Below are positions 2,953 to 29,500 of a DNA stretch of 30,173 bases, in pieces. Under the pieces are notes generated by a model that was given only the letters and a program-made list of their open reading frames with translations, had not been told where the DNA came from and made no database searches. Positions within the stretch are counted from its first letter, which is position 1. Each line of letters starts with the position of its first letter. Both the position numbers and the translations under genes were made by a program. Source of the DNA: a virus; IMG/VR virus record IMGVR_UViG_3300021957_000193, positions 1 through 30,173 of that record; one strand, written 5' to 3'.

Positions 2953-3567
2953 ATGAAAAAGCAAACATACAACAAGATTGTAACACCTGTAGGTGTATCA
3001 CAGTATTGTTGGTTAAATACGCCTGACACTAAATTTGATAAAGAGAATGGTGGTCACTTCAAGACTAACTTAATTATCAAAGGTGCAGAGGCAAAGCCAA
3101 TCATCAAATCAATACAAGATGAGATGAAAAAATCTTTAGAAATGGCAAAAGAAAAATCTAAAGGTAAACCTCCCAAACAAGCAAACATGCCTTTTGAGGA
3201 AGAATATGTAGAAGGTAAACCTACTGGAAACGTAATCTTTAAATTCAAAGCTAAAGCAAAAATTATGATGAAGTCTGGTGACGTAATAGACATCAAGATA
3301 CCAATTTTTGATAGCAAAGGCACACCTATGAAAGAGCAAGTATGGTCTGGAAGTGAAATGAAAGTTTCAGCAGAGATGATACCTTACTACACTGCAATGG
3401 CAGGAGCAGGTGTTAGCTTGCGATTAAAAGCGGTACAAATAGCTAAATTAGTTGAAGGTGGGTCTGGTGCAGGAGCAAATGCACAAGGCTTTTCTGAAAT
3501 TAAAGATGGTTATGTTGCACCAGAAGTTACGAAAGAGAATGAAGTACAAGAAATTTCTGACTTCTAA
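2953..3567 (+). CDS. Single-stranded DNA-binding protein (T7 gp2.5-like)
   Basis: Protein of 204 residues (T7 gp2.5 has 232) expected to coat single-stranded DNA at the replication fork and to contact the polymerase and helicase. The call rests on an OB-fold-like pattern opening TPVGVSQYCWLNTPDTKF, a lysine-rich central region (KEKSKGKPPKQA), the segment KIPIFDSKGTP, and an acidic tail ending QEISDF with a C-terminal phenylalanine, the hallmark of gp2.5 proteins. The T7-like position between RNA polymerase and endonuclease I supports it. The start ATG at 2953 follows a purine-rich leader (AATAAGGAC). It is the first gene after the putative phage promoter at 2883-2900. Its 3' end overlaps the endonuclease gene by 29 bases in another frame, suggesting translational coupling. 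Confidence 0.93.
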   Translation: MKKQTYNKIVTPVGVSQYCWLNTPDTKFDKENGGHFKTNLIIKGAEAKPIIKSIQDEMKKSLEMAKEKSKGKPPKQANMPFEEEYVEGKPTGNVIFKFKAKAKIMMKSGDVIDIKIPIFDSKGTPMKEQVWSGSEMKVSAEMIPYYTAMAGAGVSLRLKAVQIAKLVEGGSGAGANAQGFSEIKDGYVAPEVTKENEVQEISDF

Positions 3568-3949
3568 TCAAGTAGGACTTAAATATGGTTTTAGGTCTGG
3601 GCTAGAAATAGCTATCTCACAAGAGTTAGACGCTAATAGTGTAAAGTATGAATATGAGAAGGTTAAATTAACTTATGTTAAACCACAGAAAGCTCATACT
3701 TATACCCCAGACTTTTACCTAAAAGAACAAGATATATTTATTGAAACAAAAGGATTGTTTACTTCAGCAGACAGACAAAAAATGCGTCTTGTTAAAGAAC
3801 AAAATCCAAAACTAGATATTAGATTTGTATTCAGTAATTCAAGAAGTCGAATATCTAAAAAGTCAGCAACTACTTACGCTATGTGGTGTGAGAAATATGG
3901 TTTTAAATATGCTGACAAACATATTCCATTGGAGTGGTTGAATGAATAA
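3539..3949 (+). CDS. Endonuclease I, Holliday-junction resolvase (T7 gp3-like)
   Basis: Structure-specific nuclease of 136 residues (T7 gp3 has 149) that resolves branched DNA and helps degrade host DNA. The T7 catalytic set is fully conserved: E23 (FRSGLE), D58 (TYTPDF), E69 and K71 (IETKG), matching T7 E20, D55, E65 and K67. Further matches are RFVFSNSRSRI and the C-terminal KYADKHIPLEWL. The frame stays open upstream to 3452, but ATG 3539 is chosen because it gives the T7-like N-terminus (GLKYGFRSGLE) and is preceded by a purine-rich GAAAGAG. It overlaps the end of the SSB gene by 29 bases and the next gene by 8 bases. Confidence 0.95.
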   Translation: MKYKKFLTSNQVGLKYGFRSGLEIAISQELDANSVKYEYEKVKLTYVKPQKAHTYTPDFYLKEQDIFIETKGLFTSADRQKMRLVKEQNPKLDIRFVFSNSRSRISKKSATTYAMWCEKYGFKYADKHIPLEWLNE

Positions 3950-4379
3950 CAATAATAGAACAAGAACAGATTTTATAGTCATTCACTCCACAAAGACTAA
4001 AGCTAGTGAAAACTTTAATGCAAAGGATATAACTTTAAAAAATAGAAAAGAAGGTTTTTTCCATAACGCATTCCATTTTATAATTTTAAGAGATGGTAAG
4101 ATTGAAGAGGGCAGACCAGAAGAAATGTCTGGTGCTATTCTTCCTATAAATCAACCATTAATTACTAACCAAAATTCTATCGCCATAGGTCTTGTAGGAG
4201 GCTTATCGGAAGATGGTAAAAGTCTTGATGTTAACTTCACATTTCAGCAATACGTATCTTTACGTGAACTTGTAAAAAAGTTGAAAAAGAAGTACAACAT
4301 TGAGGTAGTGGGTTGCCGAGAGGCAATTAACTCCAATAAATCGTGCATGTCTTTTGATGTGCATTCGATTGTTGATTGA
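3942..4379 (+). CDS. T7 lysozyme-like protein (gp3.5, N-acetylmuramoyl-L-alanine amidase fold)
   Basis: Protein of 145 residues, close to T7 lysozyme (151), an amidase that cuts the peptidoglycan cross-link and also binds and inhibits the phage RNA polymerase. Aligned blocks: FIVIHST (zinc ligand H15), FHFIILRDGKIEEGR, SIAIGLVGGLSEDGK and NKSCMSFD (K133 and zinc ligand C135, T7 K128 and C130). Two important positions differ: the T7 catalytic Tyr46 is F44, and zinc ligand His122 aligns with C125. A short insertion (about residues 66-76) precedes NSIAIGLVGG. Cysteine can bind zinc, so the site may still be metallated, but amidase activity is uncertain. It lies directly after endonuclease I as in T7 and is followed within 10 bases by an intrinsic terminator. 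Confidence 0.9.
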   Translation: MNNNNRTRTDFIVIHSTKTKASENFNAKDITLKNRKEGFFHNAFHFIILRDGKIEEGRPEEMSGAILPINQPLITNQNSIAIGLVGGLSEDGKSLDVNFTFQQYVSLRELVKKLKKKYNIEVVGCREAINSNKSCMSFDVHSIVD

Positions 4380-4385
4380 TTGAGA

Positions 4386-4416
4386 AGCTCCTAGTTAGAA
4401 ATAGCTAGGAGTTTTT
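4386..4416 (+). terminator. Strong intrinsic terminator after the lysozyme-like gene
   Basis: A 10-base-pair stem (CTCCTAGTTA at 4388-4397 with TAGCTAGGAG at 4402-4411, one G-U pair) closes a GAAA tetraloop and is followed by TTTTT (4412-4416). Upstream A residues (4385-4386) can extend the stem into the T run. This is a textbook rho-independent terminator separating the SSB-endonuclease-lysozyme group from the replication genes. Confidence 0.9.
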
Positions 4417-4486
4417 CGCATTTATGGGGTAATGGAGGGAGACTGAAGTTACCTCTTCCCTTTTAAAAAATCCAAAACAAAACACA
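4417..4486 (+). other. Leader of the primase-helicase gene
   Basis: Seventy bases between the terminator and the primase-helicase start. They contain a second, weaker inverted repeat (GGGAGA near 4438 with TCTTCCC near 4458, followed by TTTT) that could be a backup terminator or a 5' hairpin. The last 25 bases are almost entirely A and C with no Shine-Dalgarno sequence before ATG 4487. No copy of the phage promoter element is seen here. Confidence 0.4.
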
Positions 4487-8678: not shown

Positions 8679-9437
8679 ATGTATAAAAAGAAAAGAGTTT
8701 TGTTAGTTGATGGTGACATACTTGCTTACCAAATCGCTACTAACAATGAGATAGAAACTAACTGGGGTGGTGGCTTATGGACATTACACTCTGATGAAAA
8801 CAGTTGCATAAAACAACTTGATGCAGTCATTGATGATTTAGGTTCTAATTTATCAGCAGATGATTACATAGTTGCACTAACAGATAAGAATAATTTTAGA
8901 AAAGATGTTCTTCCAACTTACAAATCAAACAGAAAAGCAAAGCGTAAACCAATAGTTTTAAATGCTATGCGTAAACACATCATGGATAAACACAATGGTG
9001 TGATATGGAAAAATTTAGAAGCAGATGATGTCATGGGTATTATGGCAACTGAACCTTCACCAGAAGAAGAAAGAATAATTGTTAGCATAGACAAAGACAT
9101 GCGAACTATTCCTGCTTTACTTTCACAAGACGCAACCACTGTAGAACAAATACCAGAGAAGATGGCTAACTATAATTTTATGCTTCAAGTTTTAACTGGA
9201 GATAAGGTTGATGGCTATGATGGTATTGAAGGTGTTGGTATTAAAACTGCTGAAAAGTTAATTAAGAAATATTCTAATGTTACACTTTTAGACCTTTGGA
9301 AAATTGTTAAAGGTATTTACAAAGACAAAGGTTACACCCACGCTGAAGCTCTACAACAAGCTAGAGTTGCAAGAATATTAAGACATGGTGAATACAATAA
9401 GAAAACAGGGAAGGTAAAACTATGGCAGACCAAGTAA
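8679..9437 (+). CDS. 5'-3' exonuclease (T7 gp6-like, FEN/PIN fold)
   Basis: Protein of 252 residues (T7 gp6 has 300) expected to remove RNA primers and degrade host DNA to nucleotides. Metal-binding and fold motifs in order: LLVDGDILAYQ with D11 and D13; FRKDVLPTYKSNRKAKRKP, the arch-type basic segment; LEADDVMG with E114, D116 and D117; VSIDKDM; and LTGDKVDGYDGIEGVGIKTA, the helix-hairpin-helix DNA-binding element with its GDxxDG motif. It starts at ATG 8679 immediately after the nuclease stop codon. Its last 16 bases overlap the next gene. A near-perfect copy of the putative phage promoter (9274-9291) lies inside its 3' part. Its nucleotide products would feed the downstream ribonucleotide reductase. 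Confidence 0.95.
   Translation: MYKKKRVLLVDGDILAYQIATNNEIETNWGGGLWTLHSDENSCIKQLDAVIDDLGSNLSADDYIVALTDKNNFRKDVLPTYKSNRKAKRKPIVLNAMRKHIMDKHNGVIWKNLEADDVMGIMATEPSPEEERIIVSIDKDMRTIPALLSQDATTVEQIPEKMANYNFMLQVLTGDKVDGYDGIEGVGIKTAEKLIKKYSNVTLLDLWKIVKGIYKDKGYTHAEALQQARVARILRHGEYNKKTGKVKLWQTK
9274..9291 (+). promoter_or_regulatory. Candidate internal phage promoter in the exonuclease gene
   Basis: CTAATGTTACACTTTTAG matches the element at 13007-13024 at 16 of 18 bases (CC replaced by TG). It is on the plus strand, 131 bases before the DUF3310 gene and upstream of the speD-like and nrd genes. It lies in coding sequence (codons for NVTLLD), so part of the match could be chance. Confidence 0.45.
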
Positions 9438-9664
9438 AGAAACCAAGCCACTATTTTAGATACAAGATAGAACCAGTCACCTTTATCATGCAAAACAATA
9501 TTCCTTATGCGGAGGGTAACGCAATTAAGTATTTGTGTCGTTGGCGTTTTAAACATTCAACTAAAGAAAAGCAACTTGAAGATTTAAACAAAGCGAAACA
9601 ATACATAGATTTATTAATCGAAAAAGAAACACAAACAGAAATCAAATTAAAATTAGGAAAGTAA
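9422..9664 (+). CDS. DUF3310-like protein
   Basis: Protein of 80 residues with the pattern of the DUF3310 family, common in podoviruses: HYFRYKIEPVTFIMQNNIPY, then EGNAIKYLCRWRFK and an amphipathic helix EDLNKAKQYIDLLIEKE. I recall this family as related to T7 gp1.7, which has been linked to nucleotide kinase activity. That link is from memory and the function here is uncertain. The start ATG 9422 has GGAAGG about 7 bases upstream and overlaps the exonuclease gene by 16 bases. The stop overlaps the next ATG (TAATG). Lying between the exonuclease and the nucleotide metabolism genes fits a nucleotide-related role. Confidence 0.75.
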   Translation: MADQVKKPSHYFRYKIEPVTFIMQNNIPYAEGNAIKYLCRWRFKHSTKEKQLEDLNKAKQYIDLLIEKETQTEIKLKLGK

Positions 9665-10032
9665 TGCTAGAACATAAACATATTATTATTCGTGCTTCAG
9701 TTAAAAAGCCACCCAAAGAACCTGAAGTAATGAAAAAATGGATAAGAAATTTAGTTGAGAAACTAAACATGACACCATTGGGTGACACAGTAGCAGTGTA
9801 TGTAAACAAAAAAGGCAACAAAGGATTAACATGTTTACAAGCCATTGATACATCACACATAGCATTTCATTCTTGGGACGAAGACACACCTGCGGTGGTT
9901 CAGTTAGATGTCTACACTTGTAGTGATTTAAAAAAGCAAACTGTGTTTGACGCATTAGATGAATTTGAACCAATAGGAATTAATTACATGACATTAGATA
10001 GGAAGTACCATTTAGAGGTAACACATATATGA
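9664..10032 (+). CDS. speD: S-adenosylmethionine decarboxylase-like protein (SpeD family)
   Basis: Protein of 122 residues, the size of a prokaryotic class SpeD proenzyme. These enzymes cut themselves before a serine to make a pyruvoyl cofactor and supply decarboxylated AdoMet for spermidine synthesis. Signature seen: DTSHIAFHSWDED (residues 62-74), corresponding to the usual ESH...H(T/S)W(P)E motif, with S64, H65 and H69 conserved, and VYTCSD with C86 at the catalytic cysteine position (usually FTCG). The residue before the cleavage serine is T63 instead of Glu. Some SpeD homologues have shifted to decarboxylating ornithine or arginine, so the substrate is open. speD genes are recurrent auxiliary genes in marine phages. 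It overlaps the DUF3310 stop by one base and nrdA by 4 bases (ATGA). Confidence 0.82.
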   Translation: MLEHKHIIIRASVKKPPKEPEVMKKWIRNLVEKLNMTPLGDTVAVYVNKKGNKGLTCLQAIDTSHIAFHSWDEDTPAVVQLDVYTCSDLKKQTVFDALDEFEPIGINYMTLDRKYHLEVTHI

Positions 10033-12063: not shown

Positions 12064-13010
12064 GTTTATTTAAAAGCAGAGCATTTTATAAACCCTTTGA
12101 ATATGATTGGGCTTTCCAAAGTTATGACATGCAACAGAAAATGCATTGGCTTCCAAGTGAAGTACCATTACATGAAGATGTAAGAGATTGGAATGAAAGA
12201 TTAAGTGCAGAAGAAAAAAATTTAATAGGACAAATATTAAAATTCTTTACACAAGGAGATGTAGATATAGCTCAAGCATACCTTGACAAATATATTCCTA
12301 AATTTAAACCACCAGAAATAAGAATGATGTTGTCTGCGATAGCAACTTCAGAAGCTAATCATGCACATAGTTATTCTTTATTAAATGATACGATTGGTTT
12401 ACCTGATAAAGAGTACCAAGCATTTCAAGAGTATAAAGAAATGTCTGATAAACATACATATCTTTTTAAAAGTAAAGGCAGTGGATTAGAAGGACTAGCT
12501 AGAGAGATAGCTTGTTTTTCTGCATTTGGTGAAGGCTTGCAGTTGTTTGCTTCATTTGTAATGTTACTTAACTTTCAAAGATATGGTCGTATGAAAGGTA
12601 TGTGTCAGATTGTTACTTGGTCTATAAGAGATGAGACACACCACGTAGAAAGTATGATTAAATTGTTTCATGCTTTAGTAAAAGAAAACCCAAATATTTG
12701 GACAGAAAAATTTAAAGCAAGTATCTATCAAACAGCTAGAGACATGGTTGACCTTGAAGATAAGTTCATTGATTTAGCTTTTACTATGGGTGGAATAAGA
12801 GGATTAAAAGCTGACGAAGTTAAACAATATATTAGATATATAGCTGATAGAAGATTACTTCAGTTATCTTTAAAACCTAATTATGGTGTTAAAGACAATC
12901 CATTATCGTGGTTAGACTGGGTGTTAAATGGCGTAGAACATGCTAATTTCTTTGAAAACAGAGCCACAGAATACAACAAAGGTACTGTCACAGGTAATCT
13001 TTGGAGCTAA
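12060..13010 (+). CDS. nrdB: Ribonucleotide reductase class I, small (beta) subunit
   Basis: Protein of 316 residues that would carry the di-metal centre and tyrosyl radical for NrdA. Ligands and radical site seen: D67 (FFTQGD), E98 and H101 in SEANHAHSYS, Y105 at the radical tyrosine position four residues after H101, the ACFSAFGEGLQLF helix with a ligand Glu, and RDETHHVESM with Glu and His ligands. Radical tyrosine and carboxylate/histidine spacing fit a class Ia/b-type beta subunit. The frame opens upstream at 11985, but that extension overlaps the membrane-peptide gene. ATG 12060 gives the family N-terminus (YKPFEYDWAFQSY) and has GAAGGG about 12 bases upstream. The stop TAA lies within the second putative phage promoter. 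Confidence 0.95.
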   Translation: MSLFKSRAFYKPFEYDWAFQSYDMQQKMHWLPSEVPLHEDVRDWNERLSAEEKNLIGQILKFFTQGDVDIAQAYLDKYIPKFKPPEIRMMLSAIATSEANHAHSYSLLNDTIGLPDKEYQAFQEYKEMSDKHTYLFKSKGSGLEGLAREIACFSAFGEGLQLFASFVMLLNFQRYGRMKGMCQIVTWSIRDETHHVESMIKLFHALVKENPNIWTEKFKASIYQTARDMVDLEDKFIDLAFTMGGIRGLKADEVKQYIRYIADRRLLQLSLKPNYGVKDNPLSWLDWVLNGVEHANFFENRATEYNKGTVTGNLWS

Positions 13011-13024
13011 CCTTACACTTTTAG
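13007..13024 (+). promoter_or_regulatory. Putative phage RNA polymerase promoter before the head genes
   Basis: CTAACCTTACACTTTTAG, differing at one base from the copy at 2883-2900 and identical to that at 27134-27151. It contains the nrdB stop codon (TAA 13008-13010) and directly precedes an ATG at 13025. It marks the border between metabolism and virion genes, where T7 has late promoters. Confidence 0.75.
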
Positions 13025-27133: not shown

Positions 27134-27151
27134 CTAACCTTACACTTTTAG
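27134..27151 (+). promoter_or_regulatory. Putative phage RNA polymerase promoter before the tail fibre
   Basis: CTAACCTTACACTTTTAG, identical to the copy at 13007-13024. It fills the only gap in the tail region (27131-27184) and lies 34 bases before the fibre ATG, which has AAGGAAA upstream. T7 likewise has a late promoter (phi 17) just before its tail fibre gene. Confidence 0.78.
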
Positions 27152-27184: not shown

Positions 27185-29500
27185 ATGGCAAATAGTTTTG
27201 TACGTTATACAGGTAATAACAGTACAACATCATATTCTATTCCTTTTAGCTATAGAAGCACTGCTGACCTTATAGTTACCCTATCTGGGTCAACTACAAC
27301 AGCTTTTACGTTAAATGGTGCAGGGACTACTTTAACATTCACTTCTGCACCTGCACAAGATGCGGCTATTGAGATTAGAAGAAAAACATCTCAAGGTACA
27401 AAATTAGTAGATTATGCTTCTGGCTCTGTACTTACAGAGAATGATTTAGATACAGATAGTGACCAAGCATTCTTCATGTCGCAAGAAGCGATTGATGATG
27501 CAGGTGACGTTATTAAAATATCAAACACAGATTTTCAATGGGACGCACAAAGCAAAAGATTAACTAATGTGGCAGACCCTACGGCGGCACAACATGCGGC
27601 TACAAAGAATTATTTAGAAAACACTTGGCTATCAGCTACAGATAAAGCTAATTTAACTACAGTAGCAGGTGTAACATCTAAAATTGCTTTATTAGGAACT
27701 TCAGATGCAATAGCAGATATGAACACTTTGGCTACGTCAGATGTTATATCTGATATGAACACACTAGCTAATAGTGATATTATAAGTGACCTTAATACTT
27801 TAGCAACTTCTGATATTGTGTCAGACATGAACACACTAGCAACTTCAGCTAACGTGACTAACATGGCTACACTAGCAGGAATAAGTGGATTAAGTACATT
27901 AGCGGCTAACAATACTAATATTACATCTTTAGCAGGTAAAACTACAGAATTAGGATTATTAGGAACGAGTGCCGTTGTAGCAGATTTAGCATTACTAGGT
28001 ACTTCTGATGTTGTAGCTGACATGGCTTTATTAGCAACTTCTGATGTTATATCAGACATGAATACACTTGCTACTTCAGATATTATTTCAGACTTAAATA
28101 CTTTAGCTTCATCAGGAATTGTTGAAGACTTAAATATTTTAGCAACTTCAGCAAATGTCACAGCAATGGGATTACTTGGAACAAGTGCTGTAGTGACAGA
28201 CATGGATTTATTAGGTACTTCATCTAATGTTAGTGCTATGGCAACACTAGGCACATCTACAAATGTATCTAACATGTCTACACTTGCAGGTATTTCTAGT
28301 TTAAGTAATTTAGCATCAGCACATGCGGCAGTATCAACTGTAGCTACAAATTTAGCGGCAGTACAAAACTTTGCTGACGTATATAGAATTGCAAGTTCAG
28401 CACCTACAACTTCATTAACAGTTGGAGATTTATATTTTGACACAACTGCAAATGAATTAAAAGTTTACAAATCGTCAGGTTGGGCGGCGGCAGGTTCTAC
28501 AGTAAACGGAACTTCAGCAAGATTTAATTATACAGCAACCGCAAATCAAACAACATTTACTGGTGCGGACACAGCAGGAAACACACTTGCTTATGACGCA
28601 GGTTTCGCAGATGTCTACCTAAATGGTGTAAGATTATCAGCAAGTGATATTACAATTACTTCAGGTACTTCTGTAGTTCTAGCTTCAGGTGCGGCAGTAG
28701 GAGATATTATAGATATAGTTGGTTATGGAACATTTAATGTAGCGGCAATAAATGCTTCAGTAATTAATGCAGGAACAATTAACATAGACAGATTACCAAG
28801 TATTACTAATGCTAAACTAGCAGGTTCAATAGAAAATGCTAAATTATCTAATTCAGCAATTACAATAAATGGTTCAGCAGTATCTTTAGGTGGTGCAGTT
28901 ACAGTTGGAGAGACTAAGCCAACAGTAGCCAATGTATCTCAAACGATTGCTCCTGCAACAGCTACAACAATAACTATTACAGGAACAAACTTTGTATCAA
29001 TACCACAAGTAGACTTTATTAATGGTTCTACTGGTGCTGTAACAAGAGCAAACACAGTATCATTTACAAGTGCAACATCACTTTCAGTAAACTGTACTAT
29101 AGCTACAGGAAACTATTATGTCAGAATTGAAAACCCAGATGGTAACGCAGGAAGAAGCACAAACAATATTATTACTGCTTCTGTAGCACCTACTTGGACT
29201 ACATCAACAGGTGCATTAGGAACTTTTGCTGGTAATTTTTCAGGAACACTTGCGACAGTTGCAGGTACTTCAGATAGCACAGTTGCATTTTCAGAGACAA
29301 CTTCTGTACTTACAGGTGCAGGGGTAACTTTAAATACATCAACAGGTGCATTAACAACAACAGATTTTGGTGCTAGTTCAACTACACCAACAACTTACAA
29401 TTTTACATTGAGATTAACAGATGCCGAAGGTCAAACAGCAGATAGAGCTTTCTCTATGACTTCTAGCTTCGGTGCAACGGGGGGAGCGCAATTTAACTAA
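27185..29500 (+). CDS. Tail fibre protein with T7 gp17-like N-terminus, 12-residue repeats and an IPT-like domain
   Basis: Fibre protein of 771 residues. Residues 1 to about 140 match the T7 fibre anchor domain that binds the tail nozzle (FVRYTGNNSTTSYSIPFSYR, then DFQWDAQSKRLTNVADP and AAQHAATKNYLE). Residues about 166-376 are two blocks of a degenerate 12-residue repeat, consensus DMNTLATSDVIS. A compact segment TSLTVGDLYFDTTANELKVY and a beta-rich GFADVYLNGVRLSASDITI region follow, then an IPT/TIG-like immunoglobulin fold (about 576-661, TTITITGTNFVSIPQVDFI) and a terminal Ig-like domain (FTLRLTDAEGQTADRAFS). It would position receptor-binding parts. The stop overlaps the next gene's ATG by one base. 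Confidence 0.9.
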   Translation: MANSFVRYTGNNSTTSYSIPFSYRSTADLIVTLSGSTTTAFTLNGAGTTLTFTSAPAQDAAIEIRRKTSQGTKLVDYASGSVLTENDLDTDSDQAFFMSQEAIDDAGDVIKISNTDFQWDAQSKRLTNVADPTAAQHAATKNYLENTWLSATDKANLTTVAGVTSKIALLGTSDAIADMNTLATSDVISDMNTLANSDIISDLNTLATSDIVSDMNTLATSANVTNMATLAGISGLSTLAANNTNITSLAGKTTELGLLGTSAVVADLALLGTSDVVADMALLATSDVISDMNTLATSDIISDLNTLASSGIVEDLNILATSANVTAMGLLGTSAVVTDMDLLGTSSNVSAMATLGTSTNVSNMSTLAGISSLSNLASAHAAVSTVATNLAAVQNFADVYRIASSAPTTSLTVGDLYFDTTANELKVYKSSGWAAAGSTVNGTSARFNYTATANQTTFTGADTAGNTLAYDAGFADVYLNGVRLSASDITITSGTSVVLASGAAVGDIIDIVGYGTFNVAAINASVINAGTINIDRLPSITNAKLAGSIENAKLSNSAITINGSAVSLGGAVTVGETKPTVANVSQTIAPATATTITITGTNFVSIPQVDFINGSTGAVTRANTVSFTSATSLSVNCTIATGNYYVRIENPDGNAGRSTNNIITASVAPTWTTSTGALGTFAGNFSGTLATVAGTSDSTVAFSETTSVLTGAGVTLNTSTGALTTTDFGASSTTPTTYNFTLRLTDAEGQTADRAFSMTSSFGATGGAQFN
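27680..28315 (+). repeat. 36-base coding repeat array in the tail fibre
   Basis: About 16 units of 12 codons, in two runs separated by a short non-repeat segment near residues 237-256. The protein pattern is (D/N)-(M/L)-x-x-L-(A/G)-T-S-x-x-(V/I)-(S/A). The bases diverge between units while the residues are kept, so the array is old or selected, not freshly amplified. The antisense strand is also open (27610-28443), a by-product of the repeat composition. Confidence 0.85.

Follow-up and report, generated by a model that had tools for sequence, protein, structure and literature searches.

T7 lysozyme, the product of gene 3.5, is the textbook example of a protein that is both lytic and regulatory. 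The DNA analysed here (the whole stretch of 30,173 nucleotides, referred to as the window) encodes a homologue in which residues of the amidase site are replaced, raising the question of whether this protein still cuts peptidoglycan and, if it does not, what it is kept for.

A gene 3.5 homologue with an altered amidase site

The 30-kb window is a piece of a Pelagivirus genome (Autographiviridae, SAR11 phage) related to HTVC019P. Its closest relative is the uncultured phage MedDCM-OCT-S35-C6 (S35C6, AP013542.1), whose gene 3.5 copy is 99.3% identical. The genes run from an integrase end through a T7-type RNA polymerase (RNAP), a gp2.5-like protein, endonuclease I and gene 3.5 to a primase-helicase, the RNAP-2.5-3-3.5-primase order being that of T7:

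240-2684, + strand: single-subunit RNA polymerase of the T7 type, presumed to be the partner of gp3.5
2953-3567, + strand: gp2.5-like single-stranded DNA-binding protein
3539-3949, + strand: gp3 endonuclease I (start taken from S35C6)
3942-4379, + strand: gene 3.5 homologue, 145 aa, T7-lysozyme fold with a broken amidase site

The open reading frame at 3942-4379 is a real gene overlapping gene 3 by 8 nt. Its product matches Pfam Amidase_2 (44 bits) and the PHROG 822 amidase (E 2.6e-41), and phmmer aligns it with T7 lysozyme (1ARO/1LBA) at an E of about 6e-19, covering both altered sites. The predicted fold is that of T7 lysozyme (pLDDT 85, pTM 0.83), and the best PDB match of the model is 1LBA (TM 0.82, 2.2 A). 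The protein thus belongs to the T7 lysozyme family (gp3.5/Amidase_2) by sequence and predicted fold. It shares with T7 lysozyme (gp3.5; 1LBA, 1ARO) the position between endonuclease I and primase, a single domain of about 145-150 aa, and equivalents of H17, K128 and C130. In contrast to T7 lysozyme, it lacks the catalytic Tyr, His122 and His68, and it has a shorter N-terminal tail and a longer loop at residues 62-81. The positions concerned are the following:

3984-3986, + strand: codon of H15 (T7 zinc ligand H17), invariant among all homologues
4071-4073, + strand: codon TTC of F44, replacing the T7 catalytic Tyr46
4125-4184, + strand: rebuilt loop, residues 62-81 (MSGAILPINQPLITNQNSIA), which exceeds the T7 loop by 5 aa and replaces H68
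4314-4316, + strand: codon TGC of C125, replacing the T7 zinc ligand His122
4338-4346, + strand: codons of K133 and C135 (T7 K128 and C130), retained here and lost among relatives

F44 stands opposite Tyr46, and C125 aligns with His122, exactly as a first-pass annotation of this DNA had claimed; K133 and C135 are kept, as it had also stated, and so is H15. The loss of His68, in the loop that is 5 residues longer, had been overlooked. Further changes relative to T7 are C18 to S and G45 to A. Where a zinc N-acetylmuramoyl-L-alanine amidase has a catalytic tyrosine and the zinc ligands His, His and Cys, the window protein has Phe44 and His, Cys and Cys. No substitute Tyr or His is found near the active site by sequence, the only tyrosines being Y104 and Y118 and the other histidines H41, H45 and H141; the filling of the site by another residue of either kind was therefore ruled out. 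A sequencing error or a private mutation was also ruled out, since the same residues occur in three further homologues (L002-L004), in S35C6 and group-wide.

Loss of the site across pelagiviruses and a second endolysin

The survey covered 354 gp3.5 homologues, drawn from named phages and the viral collection, 142 of them from pelagiviruses and 212 from other phages (T7-like, HTVC011P-like, CRP-361-like and related phages, VP4, Limnohabitans phage, RHEph21 and Chosvirus), the non-pelagivirus sample coming from three queries plus a few named phages. The complete H17/Y46/H122/K128/C130 set occurs in none of the 142 pelagivirus homologues. In all 212 homologues from other Autographiviridae H17, Y46, H122 and C130 are retained, and K128 in 210 (two have Thr). 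The Phe and Cys of the window protein are thus shared by its relatives, the substitutions being group-wide among pelagiviruses. Position 46 is Phe in all but four of the 142 sequences. The HTVC019P clade (n=60) mostly reads H-F-C-K-C at positions 17/46/122/128/130: H15 and C125 are invariant, C135 is nearly so (Ser in one member), and K133 is present in 51 members and replaced by N or I in nine. The HTVC142P clade has Phe46, lacks K128 throughout and has lost C130 in about 40% of its members, while HTVC109P retains H17 alone of the five residues. Four homologues (L035, L036, L037 and L040) have regained Tyr46, yet their His122 is still Cys and K128 is mostly gone. HTVC011P, which also infects SAR11 without being a pelagivirus, is intact at all five positions, so the SAR11 host alone is not the cause of the loss.

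A tree of 121 rows unites the pelagiviruses in a single clade (SH-aLRT 99) on a long branch. Parsimony on this tree assigns two changes to Y46, one loss on the stem and one return from F to Y in the L035/L040 group, and two, seven and four changes to H122, K128 and C130, respectively. Tyr46 disappeared a single time, at the base of the pelagiviruses, and H122, K128 and C130 eroded later, separately, in sub-lineages. This order is the one expected if the loss of the tyrosine had ended the amidase function and left the other residues free to drift. Other, otherwise conserved, positions have changed in pelagiviruses as well (C18, W41, G45, C80 and P131). The titles and abstracts of the open-access literature searched do not report the loss of the gp3.5 amidase site in pelagiviruses.

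Published mutants bear on what the tyrosine is worth. According to PMC8124813, which cites Cheng 1994, Y46F by itself abolishes the amidase activity of T7 lysozyme, and the equivalent Y78F does the same in PGRP-LB (PMC8124813). In Ts2631, Y58F retains 10% and H131N 3% of activity (PMC4573324). Together with the group-wide loss of the site and the presence of another endolysin (see below), these mutants strongly support a loss of amidase activity, where the first-pass annotation had suspected a reduction, and the window protein is very probably not an amidase. The accompanying suggestion that a cysteine could still hold zinc is possible for the HTVC019P clade, whose members hardly vary at H15, C125 and C135. 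Group-wide, zinc would be dispensable, because sister lineages dropped C130.

If gp3.5 does not cut peptidoglycan, another protein would have to. A lysozyme gene lies directly behind terminase in HTVC019P, HTVC022P, HTVC142P, Eistla and S35C6. The glycoside hydrolase family 24 (GH24) motif is E-8x-C-5x-T, and the S35C6 and HTVC019P lysozymes fit it. A profile built from such proteins finds a GH24 muramidase in 16 of 19 pelagivirus records. Two more (G015 and G018) have a Pesticin-family lysozyme-fold protein at the GH24 site, which brings the muramidase to 18 of the 19; the remaining record is a 31-kb piece (G044). Two records had been set aside, one error-rich with many stops (G013) and one in which no terminase was found (G003). 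The GH24 profile has no match in 20 non-pelagivirus records, including T7, HTVC011P, CRP-361 and VP4, and PF00959 alone matches none of the non-pelagivirus records scanned. An apparent absence of the second endolysin from part of the HTVC142P clade proved wrong, the genes being either GH24 ones missed by a first Pfam scan or Pesticin-family ones. The Pesticin-family lysozyme fold (PF16754) stands in place of GH24 behind terminase at L218 (3352-3930) and L219 (1088-1702).

The pelagivirus group therefore carries another endolysin, which T7 does not. The GH24 proteins (HTVC019P gp59, HTVC022P gp54, S35C6 BAQ94175) are the likely lysis enzymes of these phages; they differ from gp3.5 in fold, bond specificity and their late position, and are swapped for the Pesticin-family fold in some pelagiviruses. 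Judging from its close relatives, the window phage would have its second endolysin in the region beyond the 30-kb window. As the pelagiviruses are one clade, site loss and second endolysin count as a single evolutionary event and not as a statistical correlation.

These data also bear on the alternative that gp3.5 has remained an amidase, its chemistry weakened or changed, in which H15, C125 and C135 would form a His-Cys-Cys zinc site and another residue or water would stand in for the tyrosine. The conservation of these three residues and of K133 within the HTVC019P clade speaks for such a site, and some PGRP-LB ligand mutants retain partial activity (PMC8124813). We nevertheless regard this alternative as quite improbable in view of the T7 and PGRP-LB tyrosine mutants, the lack of a further Tyr near the site in the sequence, the erosion of K128 and C130 in the HTVC142P clade and of all but H17 in HTVC109P, and the second endolysin.

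Selection, retention and the presumed partner

Pelagivirus gp3.5 is under purifying selection with a dN/dS of about 0.16: the median for gene 3.5 is 0.17 in one pelagivirus clade and 0.15 in the other, compared with 0.18 for the HTVC011P group, whose site is intact. Each of the 63 pelagivirus RNAP loci that extend far enough downstream has an intact gene 3.5 (141-145 aa), and structural positions G40, G54, G59, R60, N73, G83, G84, Q99, L103 and F133 are invariant among the pelagivirus rows of the tree. It is very hard to reconcile this constraint, the absence of frameshifts and the complete conservation of structural Gly, Asn and Gln positions with a functionless gene that is decaying and awaiting deletion, even though gene loss is often preceded by the loss of one activity and the branch to the pelagiviruses is long; we give that explanation almost no credence.

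A further constraint lies beside the former active site. All 20 residues of loop 62-81 are invariant among the 60 HTVC019P-clade sequences (permutation p about 1e-4), with synonymous variation of 0.31 in the loop versus 0.22 in the rest of the gene. Since synonymous sites vary more here than elsewhere, the constraint acts on the protein. The loop sequence is absent from the sister HTVC142P clade. In T7 lysozyme, loop 59-72 packs against the N-terminal tail that helps bind RNA polymerase (PMC5445346). Pelagiviruses have a tail shortened by 3-4 residues, and in the HTVC019P clade the loop has gained 5.

The proposal that transcription control is the main reason for keeping the protein is plausible, if unproven. 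T7 lysozyme does not require zinc to inhibit RNAP (PMC5445346). T7 gp3.5, expressed alongside the replication genes, also promotes replication and packaging (PMC8365609). A protein that has lost its amidase activity could therefore still regulate. On the other hand, the N-terminal tail, which in T7 contributes RNAP-binding residues 2-7, is 3-4 residues shorter and different in the window protein. A long tail of the T7 type is not universal in the family, because the intact HTVC011P and CRP-361 are also short-tailed. Among the lysozyme-contact positions of T7 RNAP (PMC5445346), the window RNAP keeps E309, H726, V728, Q852 and L853; contacts 720 and 721 are deleted and most others are changed. 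Retention of the T7 interface, looked for as proof of RNAP binding, was not found, and such proof is not claimed. We also observed that pelagivirus RNAPs lack a 12-residue stretch corresponding to T7 710-721, which contains two lysozyme-contact residues. The dN/dS of the HTVC142P clade is 0.087 in the N-terminal half versus 0.204; as evidence for RNAP binding this is weakened by the same, less strong, trend in an intact group.

Site loss, selection, retention and the separate muramidase suggest that another enzyme probably took over lysis, leaving gp3.5 with a non-lytic job. The pelagivirus ancestor would have lost the catalytic tyrosine, disabling the peptidoglycan-cutting site; cell lysis would have passed to the separate muramidase encoded behind terminase; and gp3.5 would have been retained most likely to bind the phage RNAP as a brake on transcription, perhaps also helping, as in T7, the switch to replication and packaging. 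We consider it moderately probable that pelagivirus gp3.5 is such a pseudo-amidase, kept for likely RNAP control, and we infer the RNA polymerase to be its partner. A more specific version can be offered only tentatively: the two jobs of T7 lysozyme may have been split in nature, with an acquired muramidase taking charge of lysis first and gp3.5 then becoming a dedicated non-enzymatic RNAP regulator, its binding surface moved from the N-terminal tail to the rebuilt, invariant loop above the former active site.

A non-catalytic gp3.5 might instead have another partner, with peptidoglycan fragments or a phage or host protein bound through loop 62-81 and no role at the RNAP. The invariance of this loop beside the old active site, in the face of variable synonymous sites, would suit such a partner, as would the failure to retain T7-type RNAP contacts. 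Amidase folds without catalysis are kept for binding or regulation in PGRP-SA and PGRP-LC, and inactive PGRP-LB mutants still bind peptidoglycan (PMC8124813). However, each pelagivirus RNAP locus tested still has the gene in its RNAP-2.5-3-3.5 neighbourhood, and the sister HTVC142P clade does without the loop sequence. Furthermore, non-catalytic PGRPs typically lack the zinc Cys but retain the Tyr, the reverse of gp3.5, where the Tyr went first and the window protein keeps the Cys. Another partner is, on balance, unlikely.

On the preferred reading, in which gp3.5 is a pseudo-amidase with a likely role at the RNAP, a phage group naturally without the lytic half would let the worth of the regulatory half be studied alone, and in phages whose hosts are the most abundant bacteria of the ocean. 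Pelagivirus genes annotated "lysozyme" or "amidase" at this position are probably misnamed, the real endolysin being the one behind terminase. Lysozyme toxicity is a known problem in T7-type expression systems (PMC10138996), for which a non-lytic RNAP inhibitor, if gp3.5 is one, could serve as a gentle repressor.

Transcription context and neighbouring genes

Two elements flank the gp2.5-gp3-gp3.5 unit:

2883-2900, + strand: putative phage RNAP promoter motif CTAACCTTACACTATTAG, heading the gp2.5-gp3-gp3.5 unit
4381-4418, + strand: stem-loop directly behind gene 3.5, 17 bp with a GAAA loop

Exact copies of the motif CTAACCTTACACTWTTAG lie on the + strand before the gp2.5-3-3.5 unit (2883-2900), behind nrdB (13007-13024) and before the tail fibre (27134-27151), with a weaker copy at 9274-9291; the window holds five matches with up to 3 mismatches versus 0.18 expected. 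The motif also occurs in S35C6 and as a single exact copy each in HTVC019P and HTVC022P. It sits at gene-block borders and is probably the pelagivirus RNAP promoter. Further near copies were noted in S35C6 (L065), two of them in tandem at 29310 and 29327.

The hairpin behind gene 3.5 (-23.2 kcal/mol, z -6.25), described in the first-pass annotation as a strong terminator, is real, conserved and covarying. In the HTVC019P clade, where it overlaps the gene 3.5 stop codon, 98.7% of cells are paired and 4 pairs carry double changes; for the HTVC142P clade the figures are 96% and 8 of 12 pairs. Both results lie above shuffled and slid controls. The L132-type sub-lineage of the HTVC142P clade (7 distinct sequences) does not share the hairpin in this form and stood outside that alignment. 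The terminator label itself holds less well: the U-tract that follows has five residues in the window, whereas many relatives have three at most, and the stem-loop may equally well serve RNA processing or stability. Some read-through is to be expected, because no copy of CTAACCTTACACTWTTAG lies between the stem-loop and the primase gene. Rfam gave no match within the window. Over codons 111-145 (4272-4376), the last 35 of gene 3.5, synonymous variation is roughly halved, as if an RNA element extended into the coding end.

Elsewhere in the window, an S-adenosylmethionine decarboxylase gene (9664-10032) adjoins the ribonucleotide reductase genes; this auxiliary metabolic gene is annotated in S35C6 and Eistla too. 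The tail fibre gene (about 27610-28443) has many LATSDxxxDMNT-type repeats, which also yield a long chance open reading frame on the minus strand.
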